The position numbers and the translations under genes are program-made. The notes beneath the pieces were generated by a model. The model was not told the DNA's origin. It ran no database searches and saw only the letters and a list, made by a program, of their open reading frames with translations. A stretch of DNA of 64,000 nt from the NCBI RefSeq assembly GCF_001610835.1, contig NZ_CP011270.1:7210001-7274000 (forward strand). The letters run 5' to 3'. The DNA comes from Planctomyces sp. SH-PL14. GTDB taxonomy: Bacteria > Planctomycetota > Planctomycetia > Planctomycetales > Planctomycetaceae. How positions within the stretch are numbered: position 1 is the stretch's first letter; each line of letters opens with the position of its first letter. Below, piece by piece: positions 2,771-40,266 of this stretch.

Positions 2771-2827
2771 ATGGTAGTCCTCGCCCCCGGCTGGCTGAGA
2801 ACTGAAAACTGACGACCGAAAACCCTC

Positions 2828-5644: not shown

Positions 5645-6082
5645 ATGTCAGTACGAATCATGACGGGGGCGGCGGTTCTCTTTGCCGCGTCTTTGCTGAA
5701 CTCGGCCCTGGCCCAGGTGCCGGCCATCGACGCGCCGTATCCGGCGGCTGGAGCTCCTCCGGCGCCGTATTGCCAGGGAGTCAACGTCGGGCAGTATCCG
5801 CAGCTCAACGCTCCGCTCTACCCCTCTCCGGTCCAGTACACGCCTCCGTGGAACGGCGGCGCGATTTACACGAACCAGGCCCTCGCTCCGCACGAGTACC
5901 TGTATCCGCATCAGTACAAGGCCATGTACCCGCCGTTCTACCACAAGGTGCACGGCGGTTGGATCGTGACGCCGTGGGGCGTCCGGCAGCATGAGAAGTG
6001 GAAGCTCGAAGGGACGATGGTCAAGGTGAACTACCTCTCCCACCGCGCCCCGTTCTCCTTCTTCATCCCGCCCCGCCACTGA
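5645..6082 (+). CDS. Secreted Pro/Tyr-rich protein, unknown function
   Basis: Small exported protein of 145 aa that I do not recognise as a named family. A clear signal peptide (about residues 1-24: basic SVRIM start, hydrophobic core, ALA-Q cleavage context) precedes a mature part rich in Pro, Tyr and His (for example PHEYLYPHQYKAMYPP). A good GA-rich ribosome site (gggggaacagg) lies before the ATG. It is the first of three consecutive plus-strand secreted proteins (to 8106), which suggests a shared envelope role. Planctomycete walls are known to hold unusual secreted proteins; a wall or surface role here is inference. Confidence 0.75.
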   Translation: MSVRIMTGAAVLFAASLLNSALAQVPAIDAPYPAAGAPPAPYCQGVNVGQYPQLNAPLYPSPVQYTPPWNGGAIYTNQALAPHEYLYPHQYKAMYPPFYHKVHGGWIVTPWGVRQHEKWKLEGTMVKVNYLSHRAPFSFFIPPRH

Positions 6083-9584: not shown

Positions 9585-9917
9585 GGGTCCAGGGGCACCC
9601 CGGTGGGGAGTGCAGAGGGGCCTGTGTTGTTTTTCTGGCCCTTTGCCCGCCGGAGGCCTGGCCGTCGAGAGATGTCTGAAGGAACGCGCGTCCAAACGCG
9701 GACAACGTGCCGGATGCCCCATCACCTCACCCGCCGGGATTCCAGAGCGAGCCGTGAATCCTCAACGCTGGTCCCACAAAGGGGACGTCCGTTGTGTCCC
9801 ACGGTTCCTCACAGGAGTGCCTCCGGCGGCAAGGGGGCGTGGCCCCCTTGACCCCAGCTGCCGTCGCACGTTGGGTTTGAGCTATGGGAGCCGTGCCGGC
9901 GAGAACTGCGTTCGAGA
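9585..9917 (+). repeat. Family A dispersed element, copy 1
   Basis: About 330 bp. The left end is GGGTCCAGGGG, the right end TTGGGTTTGAGCTATGG plus a trailing GCCGGC segment. Both termini carry inverted versions of a hairpin followed by GCCGGAGGC. The right end stops 4 bp from the histidine kinase stop codon. It fills most of the 458-bp spacer between the kinase and the PQQ-like gene; the rest of that spacer shows no gene. Confidence 0.85.
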
Positions 9918-9921
9918 CGTC

Positions 9922-11355
9922 TCAGGCCCGAATCAGCGACGGACTCGTGAGCGGAAGACGCACGGTGAACCGGCTGCCGCGACCCAGCTCACTCTCCACC
10001 GAGACCTCGCCGTGAAACACTTCGGTCAGGTGCTTCACAATCGCGAGCCCCAACCCGGTCCCCCCCGCCCCGCGCGTCCGCGCCTTGTCGACCCGGTAGA
10101 ACCGCTCGAAAATCCGGGCCAGATGCTCGCGGGAAATCCCGACCCCCGTGTCCTGAACGAAGATCTCCGCCACGTCCCCCGTCGGCCGCGCCACAATCTC
10201 GACGCTCCCCCCACGATGCGTGCTGTGGATCGCATTACGGACGAGATTGTTGAGGATCGTGCGAAGGCCATCGGCGTCCGCCAGCACCTGCAGGTCCCCC
10301 TCGACTTCCCGGGCCGAGAGCGTCACCCCGGCCTGGTCCGCGATCGGCCCATGAACCGTCAGGCACTCGCGGACAAGCCCCGCCACGGCGACCGGGACGA
10401 TCTCGAACGCCTCAGGCTCGGACTCGATCCTGGCCAGCCGCAGCATGTCGAGGATGAGGGTCTGGAGGCGTTCGGTCTGCTGGAGAATCTGCTGGAGGAA
10501 GGTGCGGTTGTTGGCCGCGTCCTCTATCGCTCCGTCGAGCAATGTCTCGGTGTAGGCCTGGATCGAGGTGAGCGGCGTCTTGAGCTCGTGGGAGACGTTG
10601 GAGACGAACTCGCGGCGCATCGTCTCGAGCCTCCTCAGCTCCGTGACGTCGTGCGCAACCGCCAGGACTCCTTCGCCCAGCTCGTCCGGAAGCGGCACGG
10701 CGGAAATGGCGACGATCCGGCGGCGGCGCGGGATCTCGATCTCGCGGCGGATCGGGATCTTCTGCTGCCGGACAGTGTCGACGATCTCCTGCAGCGCGGA
10801 GTTGCGGATCGACTCCCAGGCGTAACGGCCCACTGCCTCGCGGCTGGCGACGTCGAACGCCACGCGCCCGGCGACGTTCACGTACCGCAGAAGCTCGCGG
10901 GAGTCGACCACGACGACTCCTTCCTGCATTGTCCCCAGGATCCCCTCGAGGAGCGTGAAGTCCTGCTCGAGCTCCTTCTGGCGGCGCTCCAGATCGTCGA
11001 CCCGTTCGCAGGCCGCCAGCCCAAGCGACTCTACCGCCCGCACCGCCCGGTGGAGCTCGTCGTCCCCCGTCGGGCGCGTGAGTCGGGCCAGCGGGCGGCT
11101 GATCCCCTGGGCACGGGTCTTGGTGTCCGCCTCCGCCGCGAACTCCCGGAATTCATCGACCAGCAGAGAGATCGGTCGGACCCAGAGGGCTGTGGCGGCA
11201 AGGGCGGCGGCGGCGGCGATCGAAGCCAGCGCGATCACGGTCCACAAGCCGGCGTCCGTCAACAGGAAGGCCGCGACGAGCGTCAGCCCAGCCGGAATCG
11301 AAGTCGCGACGAACGCGGTGCGGAAGAGTCGACTTCGAAAGAGAGGAGCGGCCAT
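9922..11355 (-). CDS. PhoR-type sensor histidine kinase
   Basis: Membrane histidine kinase of 477 aa: two transmembrane segments (about 13-32 and 36-59) with almost no periplasmic loop, a HAMP-like linker, a PAS domain (about 133-235), the phospho-acceptor His256 in VSNVSHELKTPL, and an HATPase domain with N box (LNNLVRNAIHS), G1 (VQDTGVGIS) and G2 (GTGLGLAIVK). The layout matches PhoR, so a phosphate-related signal is possible, but with no extracellular sensor the stimulus is unknown. No response regulator gene lies next to it, so it is an orphan kinase here. No strong ribosome site precedes the ATG. Confidence 0.9.
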   Translation of the reverse strand: MAAPLFRSRLFRTAFVATSIPAGLTLVAAFLLTDAGLWTVIALASIAAAAALAATALWVRPISLLVDEFREFAAEADTKTRAQGISRPLARLTRPTGDDELHRAVRAVESLGLAACERVDDLERRQKELEQDFTLLEGILGTMQEGVVVVDSRELLRYVNVAGRVAFDVASREAVGRYAWESIRNSALQEIVDTVRQQKIPIRREIEIPRRRRIVAISAVPLPDELGEGVLAVAHDVTELRRLETMRREFVSNVSHELKTPLTSIQAYTETLLDGAIEDAANNRTFLQQILQQTERLQTLILDMLRLARIESEPEAFEIVPVAVAGLVRECLTVHGPIADQAGVTLSAREVEGDLQVLADADGLRTILNNLVRNAIHSTHRGGSVEIVARPTGDVAEIFVQDTGVGISREHLARIFERFYRVDKARTRGAGGTGLGLAIVKHLTEVFHGEVSVESELGRGSRFTVRLPLTSPSLIRA

Positions 11356-11475
11356 TTATGAGACGGGCGTCATGCGGCGTTTGTTGGCAGTATTGTCAGG
11401 GCGTGTTGGCTTTCGATGAAGACGCGTCGACGCGAGCGGGAAGCGGGGCGCCAGGGACATCGGAAGCGGAGCGCC

Positions 11476-11505
11476 AAAGAAAAAGGGGTTGGCAGAGCCA
11501 ACCCC
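11476..11505 (-). terminator. Intrinsic terminator for the small acidic protein gene
   Basis: The minus strand reads GGGGTTGGC-TCT-GCCAACCCC followed by a T-rich run. It lies about 30 nt past the stop at 11535. Confidence 0.85.
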
Positions 11506-11534
11506 ATCCTGCAACCGATGTGAGAGGACGATCG

Positions 11535-11828
11535 TTAGAAATCGTCTTCTTCCGGAGCCTCTTCACCGAGGCCGGCGAGAACCGACGAATCGACGGGACC
11601 GTGGTCATAACAGTCTTCGTCATGCCACAGCGGCAGACCGGCGGCGTAGCGGGCGGCGAGCATGCGGACCTTGTCTTCCGAACCCGGCTTGGCCGGCGTC
11701 GGAATGAGCGGGTCGACTCCCATCGAGGAGAAGTCCTCGATTTCGTACTCCCCTTCCGCTTCATCCATGCTCAATTCGGTTCCGATGGCCAGATCGAGTT
11801 CCGGATCGACCTCGAAATCAAACTCCAT
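11535..11828 (-). CDS. Small acidic protein, unknown function
   Basis: A 97-aa, strongly acidic protein I do not recognise. AAGGAG lies 6 nt before the ATG at 11828, so this start is preferred over the ATG ten codons upstream. It starts EFDFEVDPELD and ends in GEEAPEEDDF; no signal peptide or membrane segment is visible. A WHDEDCYDHGP stretch holds His/Asp/Cys residues that could bind metal. It stands alone, with its own terminator at 11476-11505. Confidence 0.7.
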   Translation of the reverse strand: MEFDFEVDPELDLAIGTELSMDEAEGEYEIEDFSSMGVDPLIPTPAKPGSEDKVRMLAARYAAGLPLWHDEDCYDHGPVDSSVLAGLGEEAPEEDDF

Positions 11829-12230
11829 AAAGCACTCCTTATCAATGAAAGACAGCAAACGAAGGTGTTAGCACCCAGGATGGAGCCACGTCTTCGAAAC
11901 AGCGTGCTGTCCTTGCAGAATTGCCCCACGAACCGACAGCGAGGTCGGCGCGAATCTTTCGCTGAAACGTGGGCAACTGAAGTCGAAAACAGGGAGGGTC
12001 TGGCTCAGGCAGGTCGTCAACCGGGCGAGGCCGATTTTTCGTCGATTCTGCGGAATTGTCAACAAAATTCTTACCAGTTTATGAGGGACCGGAGAGTTCC
12101 GCTTCTCCCTCGCCACGACAGATTTCCGCTCTTTCGCGAACCGCATCAACGACACAGCCCGGCATCTCTGGGAGTGCCGGGCTGAATCGGTCAGTTGGTC
12201 GCGGAGCGTGAGCGAAAGTGGGGGGCTTTT
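11829..12230. other. Intergenic spacer with a GC-rich hairpin
   Basis: This 402-bp spacer contains an imperfect-context hairpin, AGCCCGGCA (12156-12164) with TGCCGGGCT (12175-12183), which may end transcription of the minus-strand gene at 12231, although no T-run follows. The part nearest 11829 is less GC-rich and probably carries the promoter of the small acidic protein gene. No coding frame is supported. Confidence 0.5.
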
Positions 12231-25852: not shown

Positions 25853-26286
25853 GACCCTGATCCGACGAAGTTCGAGACAAACGACCCGATTCGGAGGGTT
25901 TGAGATGCGAGTGGCAGGGCCATCGCAGCACTTCGAAGAAGAGCCCTTCCGCTCGGGGGCAAAAACGGACGGGCGAGTGATGGCGGGAGTCAAACGCTAG
26001 CAACGTTCGCCGGGGCTTCCCGTTGGTCCAGCCCCGGCCACCCTGCCGCGTCCGTCAGTTGTACCGCCCACTTCCCGATGCTCTTTCCCATGCCGTCCTC
26101 CTTGAACGTCAGTCCTTCCATGTCCGCAGAACAAACTCTCACAAAATGCGACATTTACTGCTAGGTCGACTAGTAGAGCACACTCGGCAATTCTCCGGGG
26201 GCGTCCCGTCAGTCCAGATCCAGCCAAACAGCTGTGGCAAATGGTTTTAGCTCATTTGTCGATGGCACTACGTAATACGCGGCATC
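25853..26286. other. Spacer containing left boundary of the low-GC island
   Basis: Composition changes here: GC-rich up to about 26050, then AT-richer. It contains a 21-bp family B repeat (26028-26048). The short open frame to 25986 that runs through copy 3 and beyond lacks a ribosome site and is not called. No other feature seen. Confidence 0.5.
26028..26048. repeat. Family B repeat, left boundary of low-GC island
   Basis: The reverse complement is exactly the first 21 bases of the family B palindrome at 28518 (begins CGGCAGGGTGGCCGGGGCTG). The low-GC island with the PfkB-fusion gene is therefore framed by perfect 21-bp inverted repeats. Confidence 0.8.
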
Positions 26287-26817
26287 TCATGCACGTTGTT
26301 CGTTGCCTTCGTCAATATCTGGAAAGTTTCGTTTCATGAAGACTTCCAACGCCTCCCAAGGGTTATATTTTCGCTCTTCGGTTGCCACGATCATGTAATG
26401 TGAAAGCTCGAAGTACCATCTTTTTAGTGTTTCAAACAGCGAGTTCTTTAGGATGTCTTGGTCACCGACATGCTTGTCGTAACAGACTACGATGTATTCA
26501 CAGTAGTTTAACAATTCGACGATATGCCCGCGTAATGCCCAGTATTTGCCTGCTTTGTCGGATAGGTAAATCTCCTTGGCTAAGTCTCGGGTTATTCTTC
26601 TCTCTGGTGATTGCCCCGACGCATCAAGCAGGCCTGGAAGAGTCTCTTCAATTCCTCGGCGATAAGTGCCCGTTCGACTGTTCCATTCGGCAAGAACATT
26701 CATTGCAAACTGTTTGCGGCGCCATGCATACTCGATGTTGAGCTGCACTATGGCAAATGTAAAACCGCAAGTTGTGACGGCAATCTGGCATAATTGAAGG
26801 TTCTGCGATAGTTCCAA
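26287..26817 (-). CDS. Small membrane-anchored protein (DUF4760-like), island gene
   Basis: A 176-aa protein from a TTG at 26817 (weak ribosome site, start uncertain). One N-terminal transmembrane helix (about 8-30) is followed by a helical cytoplasmic domain with charged residues (WRRKQFAMNVLAEWNSRT, ILKNSLFETLKRWYFELSHY). The pattern resembles DUF4760-type hypothetical proteins, which are often found in mobile or defence regions; this likeness is by general form only. Base composition is markedly AT-richer than the rest of the window. It is 115 bp downstream of, and co-oriented with, the PfkB-fusion gene, so the two are probably a unit. Confidence 0.65.
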   Translation of the reverse strand: MELSQNLQLCQIAVTTCGFTFAIVQLNIEYAWRRKQFAMNVLAEWNSRTGTYRRGIEETLPGLLDASGQSPERRITRDLAKEIYLSDKAGKYWALRGHIVELLNYCEYIVVCYDKHVGDQDILKNSLFETLKRWYFELSHYMIVATEERKYNPWEALEVFMKRNFPDIDEGNEQRA

Positions 26818-26932
26818 GGTGAGGTTGCCTTCGTTGAAATAGGTTTGCCGCTGAGAAAGTGCTGTCTTTGGTGGTTTTGCGGTGTCGATCGCTGACAGGC
26901 TGCCGCTTTTGTCTTTCTGGTTGCCGCGAGGC

Positions 26933-28309
26933 TCATTCTGGGCGCTCGGCTTTTGAGGGTTCTATTTTCGAGATATCAATCAGTTTTACGCGGCGAAGAA
27001 TCGCATCAGCCGTGAGCCCCCCAATAAAAGCTACGATAAAACAAAATGGTATCAATACTTGCAGGCCAAATGGCACCGGTTCGCTTTGCTTCAGGTCTTG
27101 GAACTCTCTGCTTCCGATTAACTGCGGGAGGAAGAATAAGAAGGCGGATATGACGCCTGCAGCAACGCCGAATGCTTGTTTGACGATGGCGTTTTTTCTG
27201 TCGATTGCTCTAAATGGGTCGGCTTCCTCTTGGGTAATTAAGAGGTCTATCTGGCACCCCGAGAATCCTGATAGTACAGCGACCACGATCAGCAGAATTC
27301 CGAATGTGAAACGGGTGAGGCCGGGGCCGAAAAAGCCGTACACGACTGCCGTAACTGCCCCAAGCAGTGCGCCGATTGCAAGAACCGAGGTCCTGTCAGG
27401 TGATGGCCCTTTGTGAGGACCCTTGACTACCGGCGTAGCATGCTTTGAAGTCAGGACTGGTACCAGAAATCTTCTGGCGTCTTCTTTTGCTTCTTCGATG
27501 CTGAGTTTCCCTTGGGCCGAGAAGTGATGGCACATTGCAGCATACAGAGCGTCGCCAGCACCAAGTGGCGACACGACGTGTTCCACATTGACTTTTAAAT
27601 TCTCGTGTCTCGCTGTGGGTTCGATAACGTCGAATCCAATTTGGCTTTTTGTTAGTATGATATATTCTGTTGAAAATGACTTGCATAGTTCCTCGGTGCT
27701 GATGGCTGTTTTGCCGGCTGTGGCTTTGGCGAGTTCATTTTGGTTCAGTATTACAAACTTGAACGCCGGGCCACTGTCGCTGAACTTGTTGTTGAATATT
27801 CTGGACACTTTGCTCTCGGATACGGCACAAATGCAAAGCGGCTTGCCAGACTTCTTTGCAAGTTTGTGCAGCTGGTGGATCTGCTCCGTTGCAAGGTTGC
27901 AGTCAATTGCGATCAGGGAGCTGTTGTTTATTGCTTTTGCGATGTCGTTGTAGTCTAGGTTGGCATCTTGAATGCCAATGCATGAGACGGCGCTTTGGAC
28001 TTCTCCGTTTTCGGTGTGCGCAATAAACCCACTCTCCGCGGGCAGGCGTTGAAAACGAATATAAGCAGTAGATATGCCGCGTCGCCCCATCTCTGCTGTG
28101 ATAGTCGTCGAGCTGTGGCTCCCCGCCTTGAGTACGGAGTAGAGAGCGACATTCTGGCCGCCGTGTCGCAAGTTGGCGGCGACATTAAATGCGGTGCCTC
28201 CCACGGTGTAAGTCAGAGATCCAATCTTGTCGACATTTTTTTTTGTGCTGCGATCAATGTTCGCAATAATGTCCATGTGGACAGAGCCCAGTGCTAGGAT
28301 TCGTCCCAC
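26933..28309 (-). CDS. PfkB-family kinase fused to a four-helix membrane domain
   Basis: From the GTG at 28309 it has 458 aa; AGAGG lies 5 nt upstream, so the open frame to 28432 is not used. Residues about 1-290 are a PfkB (ribokinase-like) sugar/nucleoside kinase: TVGGTAFNVAANLRHGG (about 36-51) and the catalytic GAGD (250-253). Then, unusually, four transmembrane helices (about 309-327, 332-351, 376-395, 416-437) and a short charged tail. PfkB kinases are normally soluble. The gene is AT-richer than its surroundings, lies in an island bounded by inverted repeats and is followed by another membrane protein, pointing to recent transfer. Substrate unknown. Confidence 0.82.
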   Translation of the reverse strand: MGRILALGSVHMDIIANIDRSTKKNVDKIGSLTYTVGGTAFNVAANLRHGGQNVALYSVLKAGSHSSTTITAEMGRRGISTAYIRFQRLPAESGFIAHTENGEVQSAVSCIGIQDANLDYNDIAKAINNSSLIAIDCNLATEQIHQLHKLAKKSGKPLCICAVSESKVSRIFNNKFSDSGPAFKFVILNQNELAKATAGKTAISTEELCKSFSTEYIILTKSQIGFDVIEPTARHENLKVNVEHVVSPLGAGDALYAAMCHHFSAQGKLSIEEAKEDARRFLVPVLTSKHATPVVKGPHKGPSPDRTSVLAIGALLGAVTAVVYGFFGPGLTRFTFGILLIVVAVLSGFSGCQIDLLITQEEADPFRAIDRKNAIVKQAFGVAAGVISAFLFFLPQLIGSREFQDLKQSEPVPFGLQVLIPFCFIVAFIGGLTADAILRRVKLIDISKIEPSKAERPE

Positions 28310-28517
28310 AAATGCCTCTTTCTTGGTTTTGCAGAGCCGACTTTTTCTGCGATTGTAGGTGAGGCCGCCCGCTTGTATGTGGAGTTGGCCCTCATGTTGC
28401 AGAAGTGTACCGACAGTGTGCACTGTCGTCATCTGATCTCATTGTTGTCGCAGTTGGCTAGCGCCGGGGGGCCAGCGGGCGTCGACAACTGTCTCGGATG
28501 GCTGACGATTGCACAGT
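28310..28517. other. Promoter region of the low-GC island
   Basis: Upstream of the PfkB-fusion gene and still AT-richer than average up to about 28450, then returning to high GC. This should hold the promoter of the two-gene island. No coding sequence called. Confidence 0.4.
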
Positions 28518-28566: not shown

Positions 28567-28588
28567 CGTTACACTCGTTCGGGCTCTT

Positions 28589-28877
28589 TCAACGCGGTTT
28601 TGGTTTCTCTACGGTAAGATTGCGGCGATAGATCTTCGCGCCGTGGGCGATGTAGAGCGTGCTGTGATCTGGGCCGGCGAGGATGCAGGTGGTGAGCGGC
28701 TGATCTTTGTCGACCTTCGGAAGCACTCCGCAGGGGCGTCCGGTCGGATCGAAGATCTGCACGCCGAGATCGCTCGTCACATAGAAGCGACCGACTTTGT
28801 CGACCGGCATGCCATCCCCTTTGGAGTTCTGGATGTACGGGGGTGGCTCGTTGAATTTGAACTCCCCCTTTGGATCG
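28589..28877 (-). pseudogene. Partial copy of the 3' end of the esterase/SMP-30 gene
   Basis: These 289 bp match 30779-31067 with 12 mismatches and no gaps by my alignment by eye. They encode the last ~95 aa (DPKGEFKFNEPPPY ... YRRNLTVEKPKPR) with five amino-acid changes and the same stop. The copy ends abruptly at the GGGTGGCACGCCC inverted-repeat element, and has no start, so it is a fragment, not a gene. A 3.2-kb esterase/SMP-30 gene lies 1.9 kb away in the same orientation. Confidence 0.88.
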
Positions 28878-30482: not shown

Positions 30483-30778
30483 CTCCCGCCTGACATTCCC
30501 GGCAGGGTGGCATTGTCGAATGGTGAGTGATTGTGTGCCACTGGCTCCGCCAGTGCGGATCGACTCAGCAAGTCAGAAGGCGAGCATTGGGAGACGATAG
30601 GGCTCCCGCAGGTCGCTTCTCCTGCGTCGGCAAGTTCATCTGCTTCGAGTCCTCTCGTGGTCTCTGAGGTCGCTCCATCCCATCTGCTTGCACATCGGCA
30701 CTGGAAGAACCAGTGGCACACTCCGGTACTTCCTCGACAGTACCGACCGTAGTGCCACCCCGTGCCGTCCGCTCTCTC
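30483..30778. repeat. Spacer with repeat fragments
   Basis: Contains a family B-like CGGCAGGGTGGC at 30490-30501, the 22-bp inverted-repeat partner (30523-30544) and several GTGGCAC/CCAGTGGC short inverted repeats (30540-30720). No gene is supported. These match the patches at 28.5-29.05 kb. Confidence 0.6.
30523..30544. repeat. 22-bp inverted repeat, right of the Moco gene
   Basis: Partner of 29023-29044, opposite orientation, one mismatch. Confidence 0.7.
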
Positions 30779-33385
30779 TCAACGCGGTTTTGCTTTCTCC
30801 ACGGTCAGATTGCGGCGATAGATCTTCGTGCCGTGGGCGATGTAGAGCGTGCTGTGATCCGGGCCGGCGAGGATGCAGGTGGTGAGCGGCTGATCCTTGT
30901 CGACCTTCGGAAGCACTCCGCAGGGGCGTCCGGTCGGATCGAAGATCTGCACGCCGAGATCGCTCGTCACATAGAAGCGACCGGCTTTGTCGACCGCCAT
31001 GCCATCCCCTTTGGAGTTCTGGATGTACGGGGGAGGCTCGTTGAACTTGAAATCCCCCTTCGGATCGATGGGGAGCCGCATCGGCATCGTCGGCATCTTG
31101 GCGTCGAGCACTCCGCCGGCGTTCACGCGATACGTCCAGGTGTGAGTCCCGCCGTAGTCGGAGACGGCGAGCGTCCCCCCATCGGGCGAGACCGCGATGC
31201 CGTTGGGCTTGCTGACGCCTTTGTCGGCCGCGGCGACTTCGCCGGTCTGGGGATTGATCCGCGTCACCTGCTGGGTTCCGGTTTCCGTGATGAGGATGAA
31301 GCCGTCGCTCGTCACCGCGAGGTCGTTCGGTTTGACTCCTTCGGCGACGACCTTCACCTCGCCAGTCCCCGGATGGATCGAGATCACGCGGCTCTTCGTT
31401 CCCTGGCAGGCATACAGCAGCGAGCCATCGGGACTGAATTCGAGACCGCTGACGGACTCCTTGCAGATCTCCTTGCGGGTGCCGTCCGCCGCGCTGATGC
31501 GGAACACCGCAGGAGCCTTCATGTCGCAGAAGTACAGATTCCCCTCTTTGTCCGCGCAGAGGGCATCGGCGAAGCCGAGTCCGTCCGCAACAGATTCCCA
31601 CGACTGACCGGGGATCAGCAGGTTGAGCAGCGTCAGGTCGCCGCCGAGATCGCCCCGCGTATCGAGCACCGGGGTGTGAGCTTCCTTGCGCCACAGCCAC
31701 TTCATCGCTTCGGGAAACTTCGCACCGCCGAAGTCGGCGTTGTGGGCGTACCCTTCTGCCCAGTCGAAGCGGACGTCGTAGCCCGCATACTTCAGGGCCG
31801 ACGCCATCTGCTGATTGGCCCACGGCCAGCTTCCGGCCACATTATCGACGTCGCCGCTGGTGTCGGCCATGTAGACCCGGATCGGCTTGGGCTCGGTCTT
31901 GCGAACGAGCGACGGATAGACGTTCCCCCCGCGCAGGTTCGTGAAGCTGCCGACGCTGGAATAGACCTTGCGGAAGGAGTCGGTTCGCTCCCAGGCGGCG
32001 GTGAAGGCACAGATCGCTCCGGAGCTGGACCCGCCGATGGCGTGCATCTCGGGGTCATCCGAGATCGCGTACTTCTTGCGGACCTCGGGAATGATCTCTT
32101 CGAGCAGGAAGCGGACGTACCGATCGCCGAGGCCGTCGTACTCCAGGCTCCGGTTCGAGTGCTTCCCTTTCTCCTGCGGCTTCGACTTCTCGTGGCCGGG
32201 GTTGATGAACACGGCGATCGTCGTCGGCATGTCTCCGCGGGCGATCAGGTTGTCGAACACCGTCGGCACCCGCCAGCGGCCGTTCGTGTTCTTCATCCCC
32301 TCGCCGTCCTGAAACACCATCAGCGCGGCCGGTTGGTCCGCCTTGTACTGAGCCGGCACATAGATCGACCACGCCCGCGTCGTGTCGGCGAAGATCTTCG
32401 ACTCGAAGACCGGCATCTGCTCGAGCGTCCCCTTGGGAACCCCCTCTTTCGCGACCGCATCCGGATGCGGTTCCCACGCCGGCTTCGTCTCGACGATCGG
32501 AATGTTCGTGCTCTCGCTACTCTCGTCCCACAACCACTTGAGGGCCTCCGGCAGCCGCTCCCCGCCCCACTTGCCGCTGTGTCCGCCGTCCGTCATCTCG
32601 AGCTTGTACTTGTAGCCCGCGAACTGCAGAGCCGCCGCGAGATCCTGATTTCCCAGCGGCCAATTGCCGTGCAGGTTGTTGAGGTCGTCGCGCCCGTCCT
32701 GCAGATAGACCTTGATCGCCTTCGGCTTGGTCTTCGACTTGCGAACGAGCCCCGGATAGGCCCAGCCCCCGCGAATGTTGGTGAAGCTTCCGATGTGACT
32801 GAGCACCTTGCCGAACTGCTCCGGCTTCTCCCACGCCACGGTGAAGGCGCAAATGCCGCTGGACGAAATCCCACACACGGCGCGCTTCGCCGGGTCGCCG
32901 GAAACATTCAGCCCCTTCAGGGCGACGGGCAGAAACTCATCGATCAAGAAGTTCGGGTAACGATCGCCCATCGAGTCGTACTCGAACGACCGATTGCTGC
33001 GATCCTTCGCTCCCTTGGCGGTCGCCGCGATCGTGCCCGGATTGACGAACACCGCGATCGTGACCGGCATCTTCTTCTGGTGGATCAGGTTGTCAAACAC
33101 CACGGGGACCCGGAAGTCCCCCTTGGGATTCGAATATCCGCCCCCATCCATGAACACCATCAGCGCGGCCGGCTCGTCCCCCTTGTACTGAGCCGGCACA
33201 TAGACGCTGTAGTCGCGCTTCGTCCCGGGAAAGACCTGGCTGTCGCTGAACTGCCCCGCTGTGAGCTTCCCCTGCGGAACGCCGTCGTGAACGACCCGAT
33301 CCGGCTGCTCTTGCGCCTCAGCTCGAACAGCGAGAGACGTCACCACGAAGCAGAGACAGATCAGTCCTTGCGTGAGTTGCTTCAT
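30779..33385 (-). CDS. Exported tandem esterase fused to SMP-30/gluconolactonase propeller
   Basis: An 868-aa three-part protein from the ATG at 33385 (GGAA about 7 nt upstream; a GTG one codon earlier is possible). Signal peptide about 1-24. Two tandem alpha/beta-hydrolase esterase domains follow (about 30-290 and 310-570), with serine motifs GISSSG and GGSSSG (Ser about 175 and 454) and matching His (about 269 and 548). The third part (about 590-868) is an SMP-30/gluconolactonase-like beta-propeller with repeated VSPDG/TSDG blades. The two esterase domains are similar to each other (SVYVPAQYK / SIYVPAQYK), so they arose by duplication. Role likely in extracellular degradation of esterified sugars. 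Its 3' end is copied at 28589-28877. Confidence 0.85.
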   Translation of the reverse strand: MKQLTQGLICLCFVVTSLAVRAEAQEQPDRVVHDGVPQGKLTAGQFSDSQVFPGTKRDYSVYVPAQYKGDEPAALMVFMDGGGYSNPKGDFRVPVVFDNLIHQKKMPVTIAVFVNPGTIAATAKGAKDRSNRSFEYDSMGDRYPNFLIDEFLPVALKGLNVSGDPAKRAVCGISSSGICAFTVAWEKPEQFGKVLSHIGSFTNIRGGWAYPGLVRKSKTKPKAIKVYLQDGRDDLNNLHGNWPLGNQDLAAALQFAGYKYKLEMTDGGHSGKWGGERLPEALKWLWDESSESTNIPIVETKPAWEPHPDAVAKEGVPKGTLEQMPVFESKIFADTTRAWSIYVPAQYKADQPAALMVFQDGEGMKNTNGRWRVPTVFDNLIARGDMPTTIAVFINPGHEKSKPQEKGKHSNRSLEYDGLGDRYVRFLLEEIIPEVRKKYAISDDPEMHAIGGSSSGAICAFTAAWERTDSFRKVYSSVGSFTNLRGGNVYPSLVRKTEPKPIRVYMADTSGDVDNVAGSWPWANQQMASALKYAGYDVRFDWAEGYAHNADFGGAKFPEAMKWLWRKEAHTPVLDTRGDLGGDLTLLNLLIPGQSWESVADGLGFADALCADKEGNLYFCDMKAPAVFRISAADGTRKEICKESVSGLEFSPDGSLLYACQGTKSRVISIHPGTGEVKVVAEGVKPNDLAVTSDGFILITETGTQQVTRINPQTGEVAAADKGVSKPNGIAVSPDGGTLAVSDYGGTHTWTYRVNAGGVLDAKMPTMPMRLPIDPKGDFKFNEPPPYIQNSKGDGMAVDKAGRFYVTSDLGVQIFDPTGRPCGVLPKVDKDQPLTTCILAGPDHSTLYIAHGTKIYRRNLTVEKAKPR

Positions 33386-33416
33386 CACCTGGTTCCGATT
33401 CGTTGACTGACTTTTG

Positions 33417-33597: not shown

Positions 33598-36000
33598 TCA
33601 CGCTGGAGGGGGGGCCGCCTGTTGAAGCTCCTTTTCGATTCGGTCAGCCGTCCACGCTCCTTCGTGAACGGAGAACAGCGTTCTTGTTTCGAAGACGGCG
33701 CCGTCCAGGGAGTCCGGCTGGTCCGGCCAGCGGCCGACGAATGTCCCCTTCTCTGCCCCGGTGCGGGCGCCGATCCAGGGGGGACGGGGGCCCTGATTGG
33801 AGAACCACTCGGAGACTCTCTCTGAGTCCTGTGAGGTTTCGAGTCGGCCGATGAGCTTGGTGCTGCAGTTTCCGAAGATGTTGTAGTCGACCGAACGCGG
33901 GCTTTGCGTGCAGACGAGGCAGCCGACGCCGTACTTCCGCCCCTGCGTGAAGAGCCGCGTCACCGGCCGCTTGGCGGGAGGCTGGGCGGTCCCCGCCGGG
34001 AGGAAGTCGCGGGCTTCGTCGAGATAGAAGAGGAGCTGCGGGTTCTCGGAGCTTCCGCCGCGGCAGGTCATCCAGCGGTAGACTTCGGTCGCGAGGGCCG
34101 CGACGAAGGCGGGTTTCTCCTGGTCGTTGAGCGTGTTGAGATAGATGACGTTCAGCGGGACCCGGCCCGGGGAACTTGGCGCGAGCAGGACGTCGAGGTC
34201 GAGCGGCTGTCCGCCGGTGAAGAGCCGCGACATCGGTCCGGAGGCGAGGGCGTAGAGTTGCCGGCCCAGGGTTTCCCGGTTGGCCTTCGTCATCAGGAGA
34301 TCGGCGTCGTCGACTCCGATCGAGTCCGGGGAGTAGGCCGCCGCGGCGATGTCGGTCAGCTGGATCTCGGTTGCGTTACCTTTTGCCACGAGCCCCCGCA
34401 GGACCTTCGCAAGAAACGCCTGCTGCTGATCGAAGCCCCGCGGCGTCGAGCCGACGAGCGACACGAGGTCCATCGCGACGGCATGGATCATCCCGTCGTA
34501 CTCTTCCTGGCGGCGGTCGGGACGCTCATGTTCGAGGTCCTGCAGGCTCGGCAGGCGGATCGGGCTGAGGCAGAGCCGCGTGGCATGCGACGTTCCGGGC
34601 GTGAAGATCCGTGGTTCGACGCGCCGGACGTACTCGCGGTATCGCTCCCGCTGCTCCGCCGGGACGGATTCGATCGGCCGCTGTTTTAGGAACTGAACGA
34701 GGTCCCCTTGGGGATCGATCGCCAGGACGGGGACACCGCTGAGAATCGCCTCTTCGGCGAGGATCTTGGCGAACCAGGTCTTTCCGCTTCCGGCCGCTCC
34801 GACGACCGCCGTGTGCGTCGAGAGATTGCGGACGGGGAGTTCGACCGCGCCGCCCGCCCCTTTGACTCTGCCGAGATGCAAGCTTCGCGAGGCGTCTGGT
34901 GGTCGTGATGAGGTTTTGTCTTTCCCTGGTCGGGACGTCCGCTGCGCCGCCTCCTCAAGTTCGGCTGCGACATCGACCTCATCCGGTTCCTCAAGCGAGG
35001 GGGGCTCCGGCTCATCGAGGCTGACAGACGGGCCCTTATCCACTGCGAGCTCATCGCTTTGAAGAGCCGTCTTGCTCCACGTGACGAAGCTTCCCTCCTC
35101 CTTCGGCCCGAGCGTCTTCTCACAGTAGCCGTGCCTGTTCCACTTGCAGCCCTGGCAGACGGACGGCTCGCCGCGAGGTTTGAGGCCGGTGTCCGGGTTC
35201 TCCCCGTACCGCCGCCACTCCGCCATCGAGGCGAGCAGGTCGTAGACCTTGTGCCGCTGTTCGTAAACCTGGTCCCAGGAGAGCTCGTGGAGGACCCGCT
35301 TGGGATGCAGATACAGCACTCCCGCGCCGCAGCGGGTGCTGTGCTGGTGGTGATGCATCAGCGAGTAGGTGACGACCTGAAACAGGTCGTGATTGGGATG
35401 CGTGTCCGGCATCAGTTTGTAGTCGAGGATCCGCAGCGCGTCGGACCGCCAGTCGAAGAAGATGTAGTCGAGGCGGCCGGTGACATGGACGGGGGACTGC
35501 CGAGGCCCCACATGGAACGTGACGTCGAGCCGCTTGGAGAGATCGGCGAACAGTTGCTGGACGGTCTCCTGCGGGGTGCGGCCGACGCTGCGGCCGTAAT
35601 GCACGATGTCGACGAACTCCTGGAAGTAGAGCCGGACGCAGCGCGTGAAGTTCTGGATGACTTCGGCGGATTTGCTGTGAAGCTGTGTCCGGTTGAGCGC
35701 CTCGTGGTGGAAGAGCCGCATCACCTCCTGCAGCAGACCGTCCCTGCTGTCATAGCGCTCGATGAGCTCCAGCAGCTCCGGCTTCCGGCGGCCCAGCCAG
35801 TTGAAGCGTTCGATCGAGTTGTGGAACAGCCCCCCCGCCGCGGTCGACTCGTCCCCGCCGACGGTCCAGGTCCGGGTGACTCGCGGCGATTGCGGCCGGT
35901 GCAGCCGGTTGTACTCGGAGTCGAAATAAAAGATTCGCGGGCAGGTCGCCGCGCTGCGGATCTGCGAGACCGAGAAGTGAAACGGCGGAACGAACGGCAC
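33598..36000 (-). CDS. Cas4-like [4Fe-4S] nuclease fused to HerA-type ATPase
   Basis: An 800-aa protein, GTG start at 36000 with GAGG 6 nt upstream. N-terminal RecB-type PD-(D/E)XK nuclease (about 1-295): His60, Asp178 (GRLDYIFFD), Asp193 and Lys195 (LRILDYK), QxxxY (Gln208, Tyr212). Four cysteines, Cys20 (ATCPRIFYF) and CxxCx7C at 282, 285, 293, fit the iron-sulphur cluster pattern of Cas4/AddB. After an acidic linker (about 310-370), a HerA/FtsK-like translocase: Walker A GAAGSGKT (401-408), DPQGDL (429-434), Walker B LLFYLDEARDF, and a QGRKYGVGCLVCTQSP stretch. Nuclease and translocase in one chain parallels HerA-NurA. It is the last gene of a three-gene minus-strand unit. No CRISPR array or cas genes are in the window. 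Confidence 0.85.
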   Translation of the reverse strand: MPFVPPFHFSVSQIRSAATCPRIFYFDSEYNRLHRPQSPRVTRTWTVGGDESTAAGGLFHNSIERFNWLGRRKPELLELIERYDSRDGLLQEVMRLFHHEALNRTQLHSKSAEVIQNFTRCVRLYFQEFVDIVHYGRSVGRTPQETVQQLFADLSKRLDVTFHVGPRQSPVHVTGRLDYIFFDWRSDALRILDYKLMPDTHPNHDLFQVVTYSLMHHHQHSTRCGAGVLYLHPKRVLHELSWDQVYEQRHKVYDLLASMAEWRRYGENPDTGLKPRGEPSVCQGCKWNRHGYCEKTLGPKEEGSFVTWSKTALQSDELAVDKGPSVSLDEPEPPSLEEPDEVDVAAELEEAAQRTSRPGKDKTSSRPPDASRSLHLGRVKGAGGAVELPVRNLSTHTAVVGAAGSGKTWFAKILAEEAILSGVPVLAIDPQGDLVQFLKQRPIESVPAEQRERYREYVRRVEPRIFTPGTSHATRLCLSPIRLPSLQDLEHERPDRRQEEYDGMIHAVAMDLVSLVGSTPRGFDQQQAFLAKVLRGLVAKGNATEIQLTDIAAAAYSPDSIGVDDADLLMTKANRETLGRQLYALASGPMSRLFTGGQPLDLDVLLAPSSPGRVPLNVIYLNTLNDQEKPAFVAALATEVYRWMTCRGGSSENPQLLFYLDEARDFLPAGTAQPPAKRPVTRLFTQGRKYGVGCLVCTQSPRSVDYNIFGNCSTKLIGRLETSQDSERVSEWFSNQGPRPPWIGARTGAEKGTFVGRWPDQPDSLDGAVFETRTLFSVHEGAWTADRIEKELQQAAPPPA

Positions 36001-36072
36001 AACACGCCTCTGTCGGTGAGATCAGGACCGTCCCAGGCTCTGTTTGACAACGGATTTGCGAGTCGTTCAGTC

Positions 36073-36140
36073 CACACTAGCCCGAAGCGCCAGCGAGGGG
36101 ATTTCCGCGTCGTCCCTCGCTCGCGCGTCGGGCTGGTGTG
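36073..36140. repeat. Family C palindromic repeat inside the nuclease cassette
   Basis: Long hairpin: CACACTAGCCCGA (36073-36085) with TCGGGCTGGTGTG (36128-36140), internally CAGCGAGGG/CCCTCGCT. The AGCCCGAAGCGCCAGCGAGGG-type core is common as an intergenic repeat in planctomycete genomes as I recall them. It splits the second and third genes of the cassette. Confidence 0.7.
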
Positions 36141-36156
36141 AGTTTCCAATCAGAGC

Positions 36157-38346
36157 CTAAGGCTGCAGGAGCAGCAGGCCGTTCTGATGGTCCTTCGTCG
36201 CGAGCAGGTTTTCTCCAACCATTTTTCTGGCGACCGTCACCACGAGCTCATGCACTGCCTCAAACGGGGCCCGGACCTCCTTCGTGTTCTGCAAGGCGGC
36301 CTGGGTCACCTCGTTCGTAGTGATCGAGATCATCCATCCCAGGTTTCCGAGGATGATCGTTCGGACCTCCTCTTCCGTCGGAGGGGGCGGGGTTTCGGGA
36401 CCGATGGGGGTGGTCGGCTCCGTCAGCAGTTCCTGCAGAACCGGATGCTGAACCAGGCGGTTCTGGCGATGGAGCGATTCGGCGACTTCCTCTGGAGTCA
36501 GCGAGTTGAAGCTGCCGCGGGGATGTTCGATGAGGATATCCGCGGCCTGAACAATGACGGACCGAAGCGAATCGAGTTCGACGTACTGTTGAAAGGTCAG
36601 CTTGATGTGCAGGAACCGCGAGGACTTCAACCGGACAAGGTCGCTGTAGAGGTCTTTGGATGTCGGTGTTTGCGGAAGCGGAGCTCGCTCTTCATCGGTG
36701 ATCAGAATGCGGTGGTCCAGCGCCTTCGGGCATTGCAGCAGCCTGCGGAGGGCCGGGACGGAAGAACGGCCGTCGTTCGTGGCGATAAACGCGACGCCGC
36801 TGGTCACTTTCCTTCCGGACTTCGACTCCTTTTCTTCGGCCTCGAGATGGTAGGGAGGAAGCCGGCCCTCGATCCGCACGATGGATTGAATCGTGTACGC
36901 CGGACGGCCGATGCAGTGGCGGGCGAGCTGTTGGACGACCGTCGCGAGGTTGTCGGCATCGGGAGGGAGCGCGCCCGGATGGTCGAGGCGTCCGGCGATC
37001 GCCTCGTTGAGCGCCTCGTTCACGGCCGCGTCGATGATCTCGTCCCGCGTTCGCTTGTCATCGACCGGCGGATCGGAAGTACCGAGATCCCACAGTTTGA
37101 GCCATTGGTCAGGGCCGAGACTTTGAAGTCGATCGCGTTCCGTTTCCCAGGCGTCACTGGCCCACTTGAGGACCTGCCGTGGGCGGACGTCCGGATAACT
37201 TCCGAACTGTTCCTCGTACTCCTTCTCCGAGAGGGGGAAGTAGGCGTGTGCGTCGAAGTGCAGCCGAAGTTCGGCAACCTGCTGAAACCGCTGTCGAACG
37301 CGGCGTAGTCTTGCCGCCAGCAGCTTACGAATCTGCTGTTGAGGAACGAGCGGCAACTCCAGGTGCTGCTCGGCGATGCGATCTCGTTGAGCCTCCGTGA
37401 TCACGTTCTTGTCGAGGAACGAGATCAAGGTTTCTCTCACTCCCGACGTCACGACGATCAGATGCTTCGACGAGTCGAGGAGCGCATGCAGGAACCGCAT
37501 CAGCGAGCGGATCTGCGCTTCGGTCAGGTTGTCCGCCTGATCCAGGCAGATCAGCAGGGCCCGGCCGGCGATGCCCGAGAGGGAGCCCAGAACCAGCAGC
37601 ACCTGTTCGATGTGGTGCTCGTCCTTCAGGCGGATCAGTTTTTCTTCGTCGAGATCGTCGCTCTGCGGCTGGAGTCCGATCTCCTGGGCTGCCTCTTCGC
37701 TGATCGAATTGCCCGAGAGCCAGTCGACGACGTTGTTCACGAACGCTTTCGCCGGCCCTTTGACCTCCGGCGAGGCGTTGATCTTCTCAAAGAACGCGAA
37801 CAGGACCGTGATGATCTGCGCGTTGATCCGGTCCGGACGCAGGCCGGCGTCCTGCATCGCGGTGACGAACGCCTTCCGGGCGACCTCGCGGTTCAAGGTT
37901 CGGGGGAGGTTCTGGCGGGCGATGATCGTCTTCAGGGCCTGATGGACGAGGTGGTAGAGCATGCAGTCGTCGAAGGAGTCGCGTCCTTCGACGAGGGCGC
38001 TCATCACCGACCGCAGAAGGTGCCGCGACATCCATTCCGGCGACGCCATGACGTTGTGCAGGTAGACGTAGAAGGCGGTCTTTTCCTTCTTCGCCCAGCG
38101 GCAGTAGCGGGCGAGAAGGTGGCTCTTCCCTGTTCCGGGATTGCCGGTGAGCAGGACGCCGAGGGACCGATCCGCCCCGCGGATATCATTCGTCCAACCC
38201 TTGAGCCGCTCCAGGTAGGTGGCGTGGATCTCCTCGACGTCGACAAAGTGACTGTCGTTCTCGTCGGGGAGCGACGTCACGCGCTTGGAATCGAAGGGGT
38301 TCGATCCGCGGATGACCTGGAAGAAGGTTTCCTTCGTCGCGTCCAT
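36157..38346 (-). CDS. AAA-type ATPase, middle gene of nuclease cassette
   Basis: A 729-aa protein from the ATG at 38346, preceded by AGGGG with 6-nt spacing; an upstream ATG at 38403 (748 aa) is the alternative. N-terminal NPFDSKRV is typical of ORC/Cdc6-like and defence-type AAA ATPases. Walker A GNPGTGKSH (about 68-76), Walker B ALLICLDQADNL (about residue 265), then an arginine-rich helical lid (ARLRRVRQRFQQV). The C-terminal 350 residues are unassigned, with a winged-helix-like part. No nuclease motif is seen. It is co-oriented with its neighbours (81 bp and 156 bp gaps), so a loader or sensor for the HerA-nuclease partner is plausible. Confidence 0.78.
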   Translation of the reverse strand: MDATKETFFQVIRGSNPFDSKRVTSLPDENDSHFVDVEEIHATYLERLKGWTNDIRGADRSLGVLLTGNPGTGKSHLLARYCRWAKKEKTAFYVYLHNVMASPEWMSRHLLRSVMSALVEGRDSFDDCMLYHLVHQALKTIIARQNLPRTLNREVARKAFVTAMQDAGLRPDRINAQIITVLFAFFEKINASPEVKGPAKAFVNNVVDWLSGNSISEEAAQEIGLQPQSDDLDEEKLIRLKDEHHIEQVLLVLGSLSGIAGRALLICLDQADNLTEAQIRSLMRFLHALLDSSKHLIVVTSGVRETLISFLDKNVITEAQRDRIAEQHLELPLVPQQQIRKLLAARLRRVRQRFQQVAELRLHFDAHAYFPLSEKEYEEQFGSYPDVRPRQVLKWASDAWETERDRLQSLGPDQWLKLWDLGTSDPPVDDKRTRDEIIDAAVNEALNEAIAGRLDHPGALPPDADNLATVVQQLARHCIGRPAYTIQSIVRIEGRLPPYHLEAEEKESKSGRKVTSGVAFIATNDGRSSVPALRRLLQCPKALDHRILITDEERAPLPQTPTSKDLYSDLVRLKSSRFLHIKLTFQQYVELDSLRSVIVQAADILIEHPRGSFNSLTPEEVAESLHRQNRLVQHPVLQELLTEPTTPIGPETPPPPTEEEVRTIILGNLGWMISITTNEVTQAALQNTKEVRAPFEAVHELVVTVARKMVGENLLATKDHQNGLLLLQP

Positions 38347-38484
38347 CTCGTGCCCCTGAGACGTCTGGCCCGCTCGGCACACCGCATCGGTCGTGAGTTC
38401 CATCGGCCCGTTCCCGCAGTGTCAGTTCGTGATTTGACTCCGGTCCGCCCTGCCCAGGCCCGCTCCCACTTGTCTCTCGAATTC

Positions 38485-40266
38485 CTAACGAATCCGGCTG
38501 CAGTACAGATATCGCGATCCCGCTTCCACGATGGCCGCCTGCCGCTCTTCGTCTGACGCGGCCCCGTGCAGCCCTTCGGATGTCTCCAGCGTGAACTTGC
38601 GCTCGACCCGCAGCCGCCGGACCCCTTCATCGAATTCGGAACGACCATACTGCGACAAAGCGGTTCGCAGGTCCAGCAGCTTAACGAAATTCCGTCGTCC
38701 GGTTTCGTTGTCGATCTCGCCGAAAGCCCGTTCGAAGTCTCCGGCGAAGGAGCCGCCGGCGGACGAGGACGGCGAACTGCCGAGAGACTCGCGTGGCGTC
38801 GCCGATGCGGGCGGTGATGGCTCGGATGAGGCCGGTGTCTTCGAGTCGAGTACCGCCGGCGCCTCCTCGCGACGCACATCGGACAGCCGAAACAGCATCC
38901 ATTTCTTCGCGATCTGGAGTGTTCCCAGTCCGGTGGGCAACGTCCCGGTTTCGACCGCCTTGTGGAGCGCGGCGACGAATGCCTCGCGGAGTGCGGAGGG
39001 GATAGCCTTGGCTCTCGACAGTTTGTCGAGCGGAATCGCTTGATCCTGCGCGGTGACGAGTCCAGCGAGAGTCGGTGCGATCAGCCGCGGAGCGACTTGC
39101 GCGGTGTCTTCGATCAGGAAGGCGGATCGGTCCGATCCTGCTCCGATTTCCTGGACAGCTTTCCGGTAGAGGTCGGACTCCGCGGCCTGTTTGCGAAGCG
39201 AAGCGGGGGCGTCCGGGAGAGCCTCATTGAGCAACTCGTCGATCGAGATCGGATATCCATTCTCCTGCTGTCGCCGGCGACGCAGGCCGTCCAGGAGCGC
39301 CTGAGCGGCCGTTTCCGAGGGAAGGGGGTAACGCGTGAAGTGGAGCTCCCGGAGCTCGGGCTTTGCCGCGATCTTTCCCGGTTTGAGGCGGAGAAACGGC
39401 GGAAGCTCGGCTTTCGCCAGCCGCTCGCCCCAGAGTTCGAGGAACAGCGTCTGGTCGTTCTTGGCCAGACGTCCGGAGAGCTTCTTGAGCGTGATGGTCG
39501 GCACGGCCGGAGATGTCGACTCCTGGAGCAACTGTTCGAACAGGAGGTCGCCTCCCAGCAGGCGAGCCCGGTCTTCGGTCAGGCACACGAGGTCATCCGG
39601 GCCGGCGCGAAGGACGGTCAACTGGCTGCGGCACGGCTCGGAGTCGCGGGCCTGCTTGACCAGATCGGCCGGGTTGTCGGGAGAGTTCGTCTGCTCCTGG
39701 ACTTTGCTGAAGAGAACGGGATAGCTCCCCTGCTCTCGAAGGCGGCGGAGTGCCTGCACGAGATCGCGGGAGAGGGTCTCCCACGGAGCGTGGAAGCGAA
39801 CGTCGAGGAGAGCGGCCGTCTTTTTCGGTCCCGTGCTGACCTTCCTCACGAAGCCCGGCAAGCGATCGGCCTTCATCCGTTCGGTCCAGGCCTTTCCGAA
39901 GGCTGTCTGGAGGGACTTCGGCAGCAGGGCCCGGCACTGTTCGATCGTGACGAGGGGAAAGTTTTGCGAGCAGAGGCGTTGAAGCAGCACTTGCAGCAGC
40001 CGGTCATCCCCGGCCAGTCGTGCGGCGTCCTCTTTCAACACTGCGAGGGAGTCGAGGTCCTGATCGAACGCCAGGATGAGCTGATTCTTGAGGGGCGCGA
40101 GTTGAATGGCTTCTCGCAGCTCCGACTCGCTGACTCCGGGCCGAGCGGCCTCGGCCATCTGCCGGAACGGTGCCGGATTGCTTCCGGACTCTTTGTTCTG
40201 CCGCAACGCCGCCAGGAGTTCCGTTGCCAGAATTTTCCCGGGACTCGCCGGCTGTTTCTTGCCCAT
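38485..40266 (-). CDS. Triple-repeat winged-helix-like protein, first gene of nuclease cassette
   Basis: A 593-aa protein from the ATG at 40266 (GAGGAAACC upstream; the longer frame to 40359 lacks support). I do not know a family for it. Three tandem ~145-residue repeats (about 17-160, 168-313, 323-463) each start with an ALRR-like helix and GxYP (SNPAPF, GSYPVLF, NGYPISI) and end with an ELxxLPxF segment (DRLPGF, AELPPF, GTLPTG). An A/S/P-rich linker (about 470-505) leads to a C-terminal domain (507-593), LLDLRTALSQYGRSEFDEGV, that looks like a winged helix. DNA or protein recognition is the likely job; no catalytic residues are seen. Confidence 0.72.
   Translation of the reverse strand: MGKKQPASPGKILATELLAALRQNKESGSNPAPFRQMAEAARPGVSESELREAIQLAPLKNQLILAFDQDLDSLAVLKEDAARLAGDDRLLQVLLQRLCSQNFPLVTIEQCRALLPKSLQTAFGKAWTERMKADRLPGFVRKVSTGPKKTAALLDVRFHAPWETLSRDLVQALRRLREQGSYPVLFSKVQEQTNSPDNPADLVKQARDSEPCRSQLTVLRAGPDDLVCLTEDRARLLGGDLLFEQLLQESTSPAVPTITLKKLSGRLAKNDQTLFLELWGERLAKAELPPFLRLKPGKIAAKPELRELHFTRYPLPSETAAQALLDGLRRRRQQENGYPISIDELLNEALPDAPASLRKQAAESDLYRKAVQEIGAGSDRSAFLIEDTAQVAPRLIAPTLAGLVTAQDQAIPLDKLSRAKAIPSALREAFVAALHKAVETGTLPTGLGTLQIAKKWMLFRLSDVRREEAPAVLDSKTPASSEPSPPASATPRESLGSSPSSSAGGSFAGDFERAFGEIDNETGRRNFVKLLDLRTALSQYGRSEFDEGVRRLRVERKFTLETSEGLHGAASDEERQAAIVEAGSRYLYCSRIR

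Follow-up and report, generated by a model that had tools for sequence, protein, structure and literature searches.

What do three neighbouring genes, whose products are a multi-winged-helix protein, an AAA ATPase and a fusion of a nuclease with a DNA pump, do together in Planctomyces sp. SH-PL14, and do they make up a system that has been described before? The genes lie within positions 7210001-7274000 of the 8.44-Mb single-contig genome. This stretch of 64,000 bp is called the window here, and the coordinates below refer to it unless another locus is named (Table 1). A sequence-only reading had put the cassette forward as a candidate for an undescribed system. The gene set it gave, with its coordinates and co-orientation (all three genes on the - strand of the window), is correct, as is the joining of a Cas4-type nuclease to HerA in a single chain of 800 aa. 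The closest named loci in the ATPase profile scan described below belong to the Planctomycetaceae.

Table 1. Coordinates of the cassette genes and of their predicted domains in the window.
Feature	Coordinates	Strand	Description or basis
wh3, 593-aa multi-winged-helix protein	38485..40266	-	Predicted three double-wHTH repeats and C-terminal wHTH
wh3 repeat 1, residues 1-160, two predicted wHTH	39787..40266	-	AlphaFold2 and repeat scores
wh3 repeat 2, residues 161-312, two predicted wHTH	39331..39786	-	AlphaFold2 and repeat scores
wh3 repeat 3, residues 313-465, two predicted wHTH	38872..39330	-	AlphaFold2 and repeat scores
wh3 C-terminal wHTH, residues 507-593	38488..38748	-	AlphaFold2; best conserved part of the family
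AAA, predicted Orc/Cdc6-type ATPase, ~729 aa	36157..38346	-	Profile matches and predicted structure
ATPase alpha-beta domain, residues 463-606 of P0002, candidate iREase	36526..36957	-	AlphaFold2
ATPase C-terminal wHTH, residues 657-726 of P0002	36166..36375	-	AlphaFold2
REP-like palindrome between gene 2 and gene 3	36079..36134	.	Genome-wide repeat
Nuclease-HerA fusion, 800 aa, GTG start	33598..36000	-	Profile matches, conserved residues
Cas4-type PD-(D/E)XK nuclease domain, four Fe-S cysteines, residues 8-300	35101..35979	-	Profiles, alignment
HerA-type translocase domain, residues 375-800	33598..34878	-	Profiles, alignment, tree

Gene organization and genome setting

The sequence GAGGA sits a few bases ahead of the ATG of wh3. 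The ATPase gene is read from an ATG at 38346, with a longer alternative start possible at 38403. In this genome the cassette is loosely packed: between the ATPase gene and the nuclease-HerA gene lies a gap of 156 bp, which contains a REP-like palindrome with the half-site CCCTCGCTNGCGCTTCGGGCT, in pairs about 35 bp apart. There are 67 such half-sites genome-wide and 0 occurrences of the reversed control pattern, and the palindrome is probably a later insertion into the operon. No codon or GC trace of transfer was seen in the cassette, the GC content of which is 0.637, against 0.643 for the window.

Two further features of the window lie beyond the cassette. Positions 26000-28500 form a low-GC patch (0.50 vs 0.64), possibly foreign DNA, with a 499-aa ORF that resembles a fusion of a PfkB-type sugar kinase with a membrane segment. 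A 300-bp stretch is present at both 28576-28875 and 30766-31065 (95% identity, 2.2 kb apart); it corresponds to the 3′ part of a large esterase-like gene (30779-33388), and the distant copy is an apparent gene fragment.

The nuclease-HerA fusion

Residues 8-288 of the fusion match PDDEXK_1 (PF12705, 1.9e-14), and the nuclease part also matches Cas4 (TIGR00372, 8.7e-7). The motor part matches DUF87 (8.3e-12), HerA_C (7.1e-11) and the HerA model of PADLOC (4.8e-18), as well as solved HerA proteins. Residue conservation was assessed in an alignment of ten sequences, namely the window protein and nine homologues (43-57% identity) from Planctomycetota, a deltaproteobacterium and a gammaproteobacterium. 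The residues picked out by the sequence-only reading are conserved in this set: Cys20, Cys282, Cys285, Cys293, Asp178, Asp193, Lys195 and Gln208 are invariant in 10/10 fusions, and Tyr212 is nearly so. The glycine-lysine-threonine core of the Walker A motif (G401, G404-T408) and His60 are likewise invariant across all ten. Because the catalytic, Fe-S and Walker A residues do not vary, the fusion fits an active [4Fe-4S] PD-(D/E)XK nuclease joined to a working motor.

The possibility that this is a universal planctomycete housekeeping gene, raised in the sequence-only reading, was rejected. Some HerA match is found in 115/150 genomes of the order, where it is a HerA encoded on its own that is common, and the fused HerA domains form a distinct group of their own in the tree (support 98/99). 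One standalone HerA-like protein of ~830 aa is encoded at 9701-12181 of locus L029, and most genomes of the order encode relatives of it.

The ATPase and the winged-helix protein

The product of the second gene matches AAA_22 (5.5e-10). The NPFxxxRV N-terminus noticed earlier is present, and its NPF is conserved in homologues. The Walker A motif is GNPGTGKS and the Walker B motif is DQxD, with Gln, residue 269 of P0002, where Glu is normal. This D-Q-x-(D/E) form is found in 10/10 trios checked, in the Schlesneria gene pair and in the FtsK-type ATPases, both described below. Exchange of Glu for Gln in Walker B is a laboratory change that traps AAA proteins with ATP bound, and since the natural Gln mimics this change, the ATPase may act as a slow switch. 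The AlphaFold2 model (pLDDT 87.1; the models of this protein and of wh3 were built with 24-25 sequences) has its best Foldseek matches in ORC/Cdc6 (E 8.6e-5 and 1.2e-4). VIA-align gives Z 13-15.5 for Orc/Cdc6, level with RdrA and near TnsC, which is itself counted to the Orc/CDC6 family in the part of the work of Rakesh et al. (2024; PMC10853773) considered here. The core is accordingly predicted to be of Orc/Cdc6 type. Between the AAA core and a C-terminal helix-helix-helix-strand-strand unit, a wHTH in the predicted structure, lies an alpha-beta-beta-beta-alpha-beta domain. Its strand order is REase-like, conserved catalytic residues are absent from the middle strands, and it is a candidate inactive REase (iREase). 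A profile comparison with the Cas4-like domain found no similarity, as expected if the two are very diverged.

The 593-aa protein, wh3, has no match in Pfam or PADLOC and no credible one in NCBIfam. The earlier description of three repeats followed by a winged-helix end is borne out by both scores and predicted structure. The three units of ~150 aa are true repeats, with pairwise local scores 24.8, 6.5 and 14.7 s.d. above shuffles, and wHTH folds are present in the AlphaFold2 model (mean pLDDT 90.7). By a reading of its predicted secondary structure, wh3 would carry seven winged helices, two in each of the three units and one at the C-terminus. Structure searches pointed to proteins with tandem wHTH domains, among them SelB, and gave a weak match to SspB (6juf, E 0.037); VIA-align returned weak matches (best Z 8.4), with DndG and FokI absent among the matches listed. 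Homologues adjoin the ATPase gene in nearly every related locus having enough sequence. Beside HerA-type ATPases they range from 270 to 609 aa, and within the trios from 270 to 593 aa; the number of repeat units probably varies among them. With a mean identity of 0.29, against 0.53 for HerA, wh3 is the least conserved part of the cassette and a probable DNA-recognition subunit.

Linkage and distribution of the three genes

When 84,980 species genomes were scanned with a profile of the ATPase, 28 loci were found, and in these the co-occurrence that the sequence-only reading had proposed to count could be followed. The nuclease-HerA gene comes directly after the ATPase gene in 11 of them (L075-L082, L085, L090 and L092), two of these (L078 and L081) being on contigs that end inside the nuclease-HerA gene. 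L075 and G113, the latter from the 150-genome sample of the order, are one contig, identical in length and proteins. Ten loci lack nuclease-HerA (L083, L084, L086, L088, L091 and L093-L097), one archaeal locus (L100) has the ATPase and a Cas4-like nuclease as far as the contig end, and the remaining six are cut by contig ends. The gene order of the trio is kept in Planctomycetota, a deltaproteobacterium, Sorangium (on a contig that ends within the nuclease) and Chromatiales. In four related loci there is a 4-bp overlap of genes 2 and 3, and in Rhodopirellula sp. JC639 (L090) the ATPase and nuclease-HerA form a single ORF of 1573 aa. The fusion adjoined the ATPase in every case found, and no other full-length fusion was present in the 150 genomes of the order. 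Evolutionary distances of the four parts are correlated (r 0.69-0.83, Mantel p 0.0005), to which shared ancestry contributes, a mirror-tree correlation being unable to separate co-function from shared descent. Gene order and linkage together indicate that the three genes are a conserved module, and none of the three refuting conditions named in the sequence-only reading speaks against it.

The trio is an accessory gene set of sporadic distribution. The full-length fusion, and with it the HerA-type trio, is found in 2/150 genomes of the order, and the flanks of the trio loci share no common family beyond generic planctomycete paralogues. Next to the window cassette is a GntR-RND-MFP cluster, which occurs without the cassette in three relatives. 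A clean empty site was not found in these, as the left-hand flank does not lie beside the cassette-free GntR-RND-MFP cluster.

Parallel FtsK-type trios and two-gene forms

Distant homologues of the ATPase from the same taxonomic order belong to a second family of trios (L039-L045), made up of a wHTH protein, an ATPase of NPFR type and an FtsK-type motor that carries a fused PD-(D/E)XK nuclease. By profile comparison, the ATPases of the two families are homologous (probability 99.8%), and the C-terminal wHTH domains of their wHTH proteins show weak homology (E 1.9e-4, probability 48%). The FtsK-type set is found as separate genes in three further members of the phylum (L121, L122 and L125), and in L123 and L126 the ATPase and FtsK are in one chain, each with a gene upstream that in L123 is a wHTH gene by similarity. 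Just upstream of the FtsK-type trio of L125, at 2493-6005, is a large ORF resembling a CHAT protease and P-loop NTPase, which could be another conflict gene. A conjugative plasmid of the cyanobacterium Pseudanabaena sp. PCC 7367 also carries an FtsK-type trio in the same order, adjoining a ZorD/DpdE-like helicase gene. All four cysteines are present in this plasmid nuclease and in the archaeal nuclease, and are missing from the planctomycete FtsK-type nucleases examined; for this reason the iron-sulphur form may be the older one.

Schlesneria, Fuerstiella and relatives (L031-L037, L091, L093-L095 and L097) have the wHTH protein and ATPase only. The Schlesneria two-gene form lies beside purH in four genomes, in a conserved place with an adjacent sulfatase gene, and looks vertical rather than mobile.

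Comparison with known systems

Operons of this architecture have been predicted, without experiments, as Orc/CDC6-coupled HerA/FtsK capture systems (Rakesh et al., 2024; PMC10853773). As described in the sections of that paper considered here, their neighbourhoods contain HerA/FtsK, an Orc/CDC6 ATPase in which an inactive REase follows the AAA core and precedes a C-terminal wHTH, and an active REase that belongs to one of two families, the AbiJ type being one of them. A subset also has a fast-evolving protein with 2-4 wHTH domains, related to DndG/SspB/FokI. The ATPase was proposed to localise the machine to DNA sites, where the pump delivers invader DNA to the nuclease. The window operon closely matches this plan. 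It shares an Orc/Cdc6 AAA+ ATPase whose C-terminal wHTH is preceded by an additional alpha-beta domain, a nuclease, here a PD-(D/E)XK domain with a complete active site, the HerA or FtsK motor and the multi-wHTH gene, and in both sets the domains are split or fused in various ways. The claim of an undescribed system therefore holds for the existence of a conserved module, but not for its novelty, such operons having already been predicted. Relative to those sections of the text, the new elements are the Cas4-like nuclease-motor fusion (Cas4, RecB and Fe-S nucleases are not mentioned there), the seven predicted winged helices as against 2-4, and the Walker B Gln, which is invariant here and was not found there. 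The neighbourhoods are also called mobile in that text, whereas the window copy has no adjacent mobile-element genes.

Other systems share parts of the plan. DndFGH, proposed as a stand-alone counter-invader system, likewise combines a wHTH recognition protein (the triple wHTH of DndG), a HerA/FtsK pump (DndH) and REase activity. The window trio has, however, no DndF kinase-type protein, and its third protein is an 800-aa chain with a Cas4-type nuclease. Membership of DndFGH was rejected, the sole Dnd match being a weak one to a stretch of DndH around the P-loop (7.4e-4). BREX-Related Capture (BRC) systems also have an Orc/Cdc6-type ATPase and a HerA/FtsK translocase at their core, and carry PglZ, DUF6079, DUF4007 and a STAND NTPase (PMC12839542). 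All four are absent from the operon, and PglZ is absent among the window proteins scanned with PADLOC, so BREX and BRC were rejected. HerA-NurA and HerA-SIR2/DUF4297 pairs resemble the window set in joining a HerA pump to a nuclease or other effector, but the window set has a PD-(D/E)XK Cas4-like domain of the same chain as its effector, and an ATPase and a wHTH array in addition. HerA-NurA was rejected since the nuclease is PF12705/Cas4-like, with no NurA match in profile searches. Cas4 and Cas4-like pfam12705 proteins have the PF12705/TIGR00372 domain, the four Fe-S cysteines and the D-DxK and QxxxY motifs in common with the fusion, and a survey of them described fusions to Cas1 and UvrD, with HerA and FtsK unmentioned (PMC5704561). 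A part in CRISPR adaptation was rejected, as no Cas protein and no cas1/cas2 were found by PADLOC among the 27 non-cassette window proteins scanned. MADS was rejected as well: mad8 matches both P-loop proteins only partly, which is taken as shared P-loop similarity.

Defence genes and mobile elements around the cassette

Linkage to known defence genes, which the sequence-only reading had proposed as a check, was not found. PADLOC detected none near the window cassette among 27 neighbouring window proteins; its sole match was one protein hit by RT-Protease_XI (2.7e-18), probably through the protease domain only. Around the other chromosomal loci, PADLOC models gave no defence genes beyond generic kinases, the neighbours matching mainly Ser/Thr-kinase models (PD-T4-6, mad6 and PglW) that are common in planctomycetes. 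No relative was found in ATPase and nuclease-HerA profile scans of viral contigs, phage records held no nuclease-HerA relative, and among plasmid records none covered most of the window fusion and none matched the window ATPase. Neither an integrase nor a relaxase was seen beside the window copy, and the operon contains no modification or self/non-self marking enzyme.

Proposed function and alternative explanations

The cassette is, in our assessment, reasonably likely to be a HerA/FtsK-type capture system directed against invaders, a role in defence being suggested by its architecture, its patchy distribution, its fast-evolving recognition subunit and its conserved catalytic sites. Parallel FtsK-type trios that follow the same logic, one of them on a conjugative plasmid, point the same way, as does the prediction of counter-invader activity for this architecture by comparative genomics (PMC10853773). 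On this model, the multi-winged-helix protein and the Orc/Cdc6-type ATPase would bind a target on foreign DNA, with the ATPase, given its Walker B Gln, probably serving as a slow ATP-switched loader or clamp and not as a motor. The two proteins would recruit a hexamer of nuclease-HerA, the ring of which would thread duplex DNA and pump it into its own Cas4-type [4Fe-4S] nuclease to be cut or degraded. We infer the mechanistic steps beyond the domain assignments, among them complex formation, DNA targeting and the direction of pumping, and also defence itself. Against the capture model stand the lack of a defence island, the vertical-looking Schlesneria two-gene form and the lack of a self/non-self marking enzyme. 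A narrower version, offered tentatively, would accommodate modification-free restriction: the wHTH array and the slow-hydrolysis ATPase would pick invader DNA, the Cas4-type nuclease-HerA ring would capture, transport and destroy it, and the Schlesneria pair would have been repurposed.

The main rival to the capture model is a DNA-repair or end-processing module, in which the ATPase and wHTH protein load nuclease-HerA on broken chromosomal DNA for end resection of the HerA-NurA kind. HerA and a nuclease do make up the archaeal resection pair HerA-NurA, the cassette stands outside any defence island and the synteny of the Schlesneria pair is conserved. Cas4/RecB-type nucleases often act in recombination, and UvrD fusions are discussed in that sense in PMC5704561. 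We nevertheless regard repair as unlikely, since core repair genes would not usually be confined to 2/150 genomes of the order and yet spread over distant phyla, the wHTH subunit is fast-evolving and varies in its number of repeats, and the persistence of the Schlesneria pair without the nuclease implies that the nuclease can be dispensed with in some cases. Plasmids and conjugative elements often carry Orc/Cdc6-like ATPases and HerA/FtsK pumps, and the FtsK-type trio of the cyanobacterial plasmid could likewise speak for a module that serves mobile elements in housekeeping or transfer (replication, exclusion or DNA transfer) and became stranded in chromosomes. This is improbable in view of the empty searches of viral contigs, phage records and plasmid records and of the missing integrase and relaxase genes reported above. 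It is highly improbable that chance brought together two unrelated units, a wHTH-ATPase pair with a regulatory or structural role and an independently useful nuclease-HerA gene. Schlesneria and Fuerstiella do have the pair but not the third gene, and in the window the repeat-bearing 156-bp gap sets gene 3 apart; the constant adjacency of the fusion to the ATPase, the lack of any other full-length fusion in the 150 genomes, the 4-bp overlaps, the in-frame joining and the co-divergence all argue against it.

Although HerA/FtsK capture systems with an Orc/Cdc6 ATPase have been predicted, no experimental study of any member was found in the literature searched. This small three-gene operon is a convenient test case, as its nuclease and motor share a single chain and its catalytic residues are clear targets for mutation. 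If the capture model is true, a Cas4-type nuclease would work with a DNA pump outside CRISPR adaptation, and an ATPase of the origin-recognition type would select DNA for destruction.
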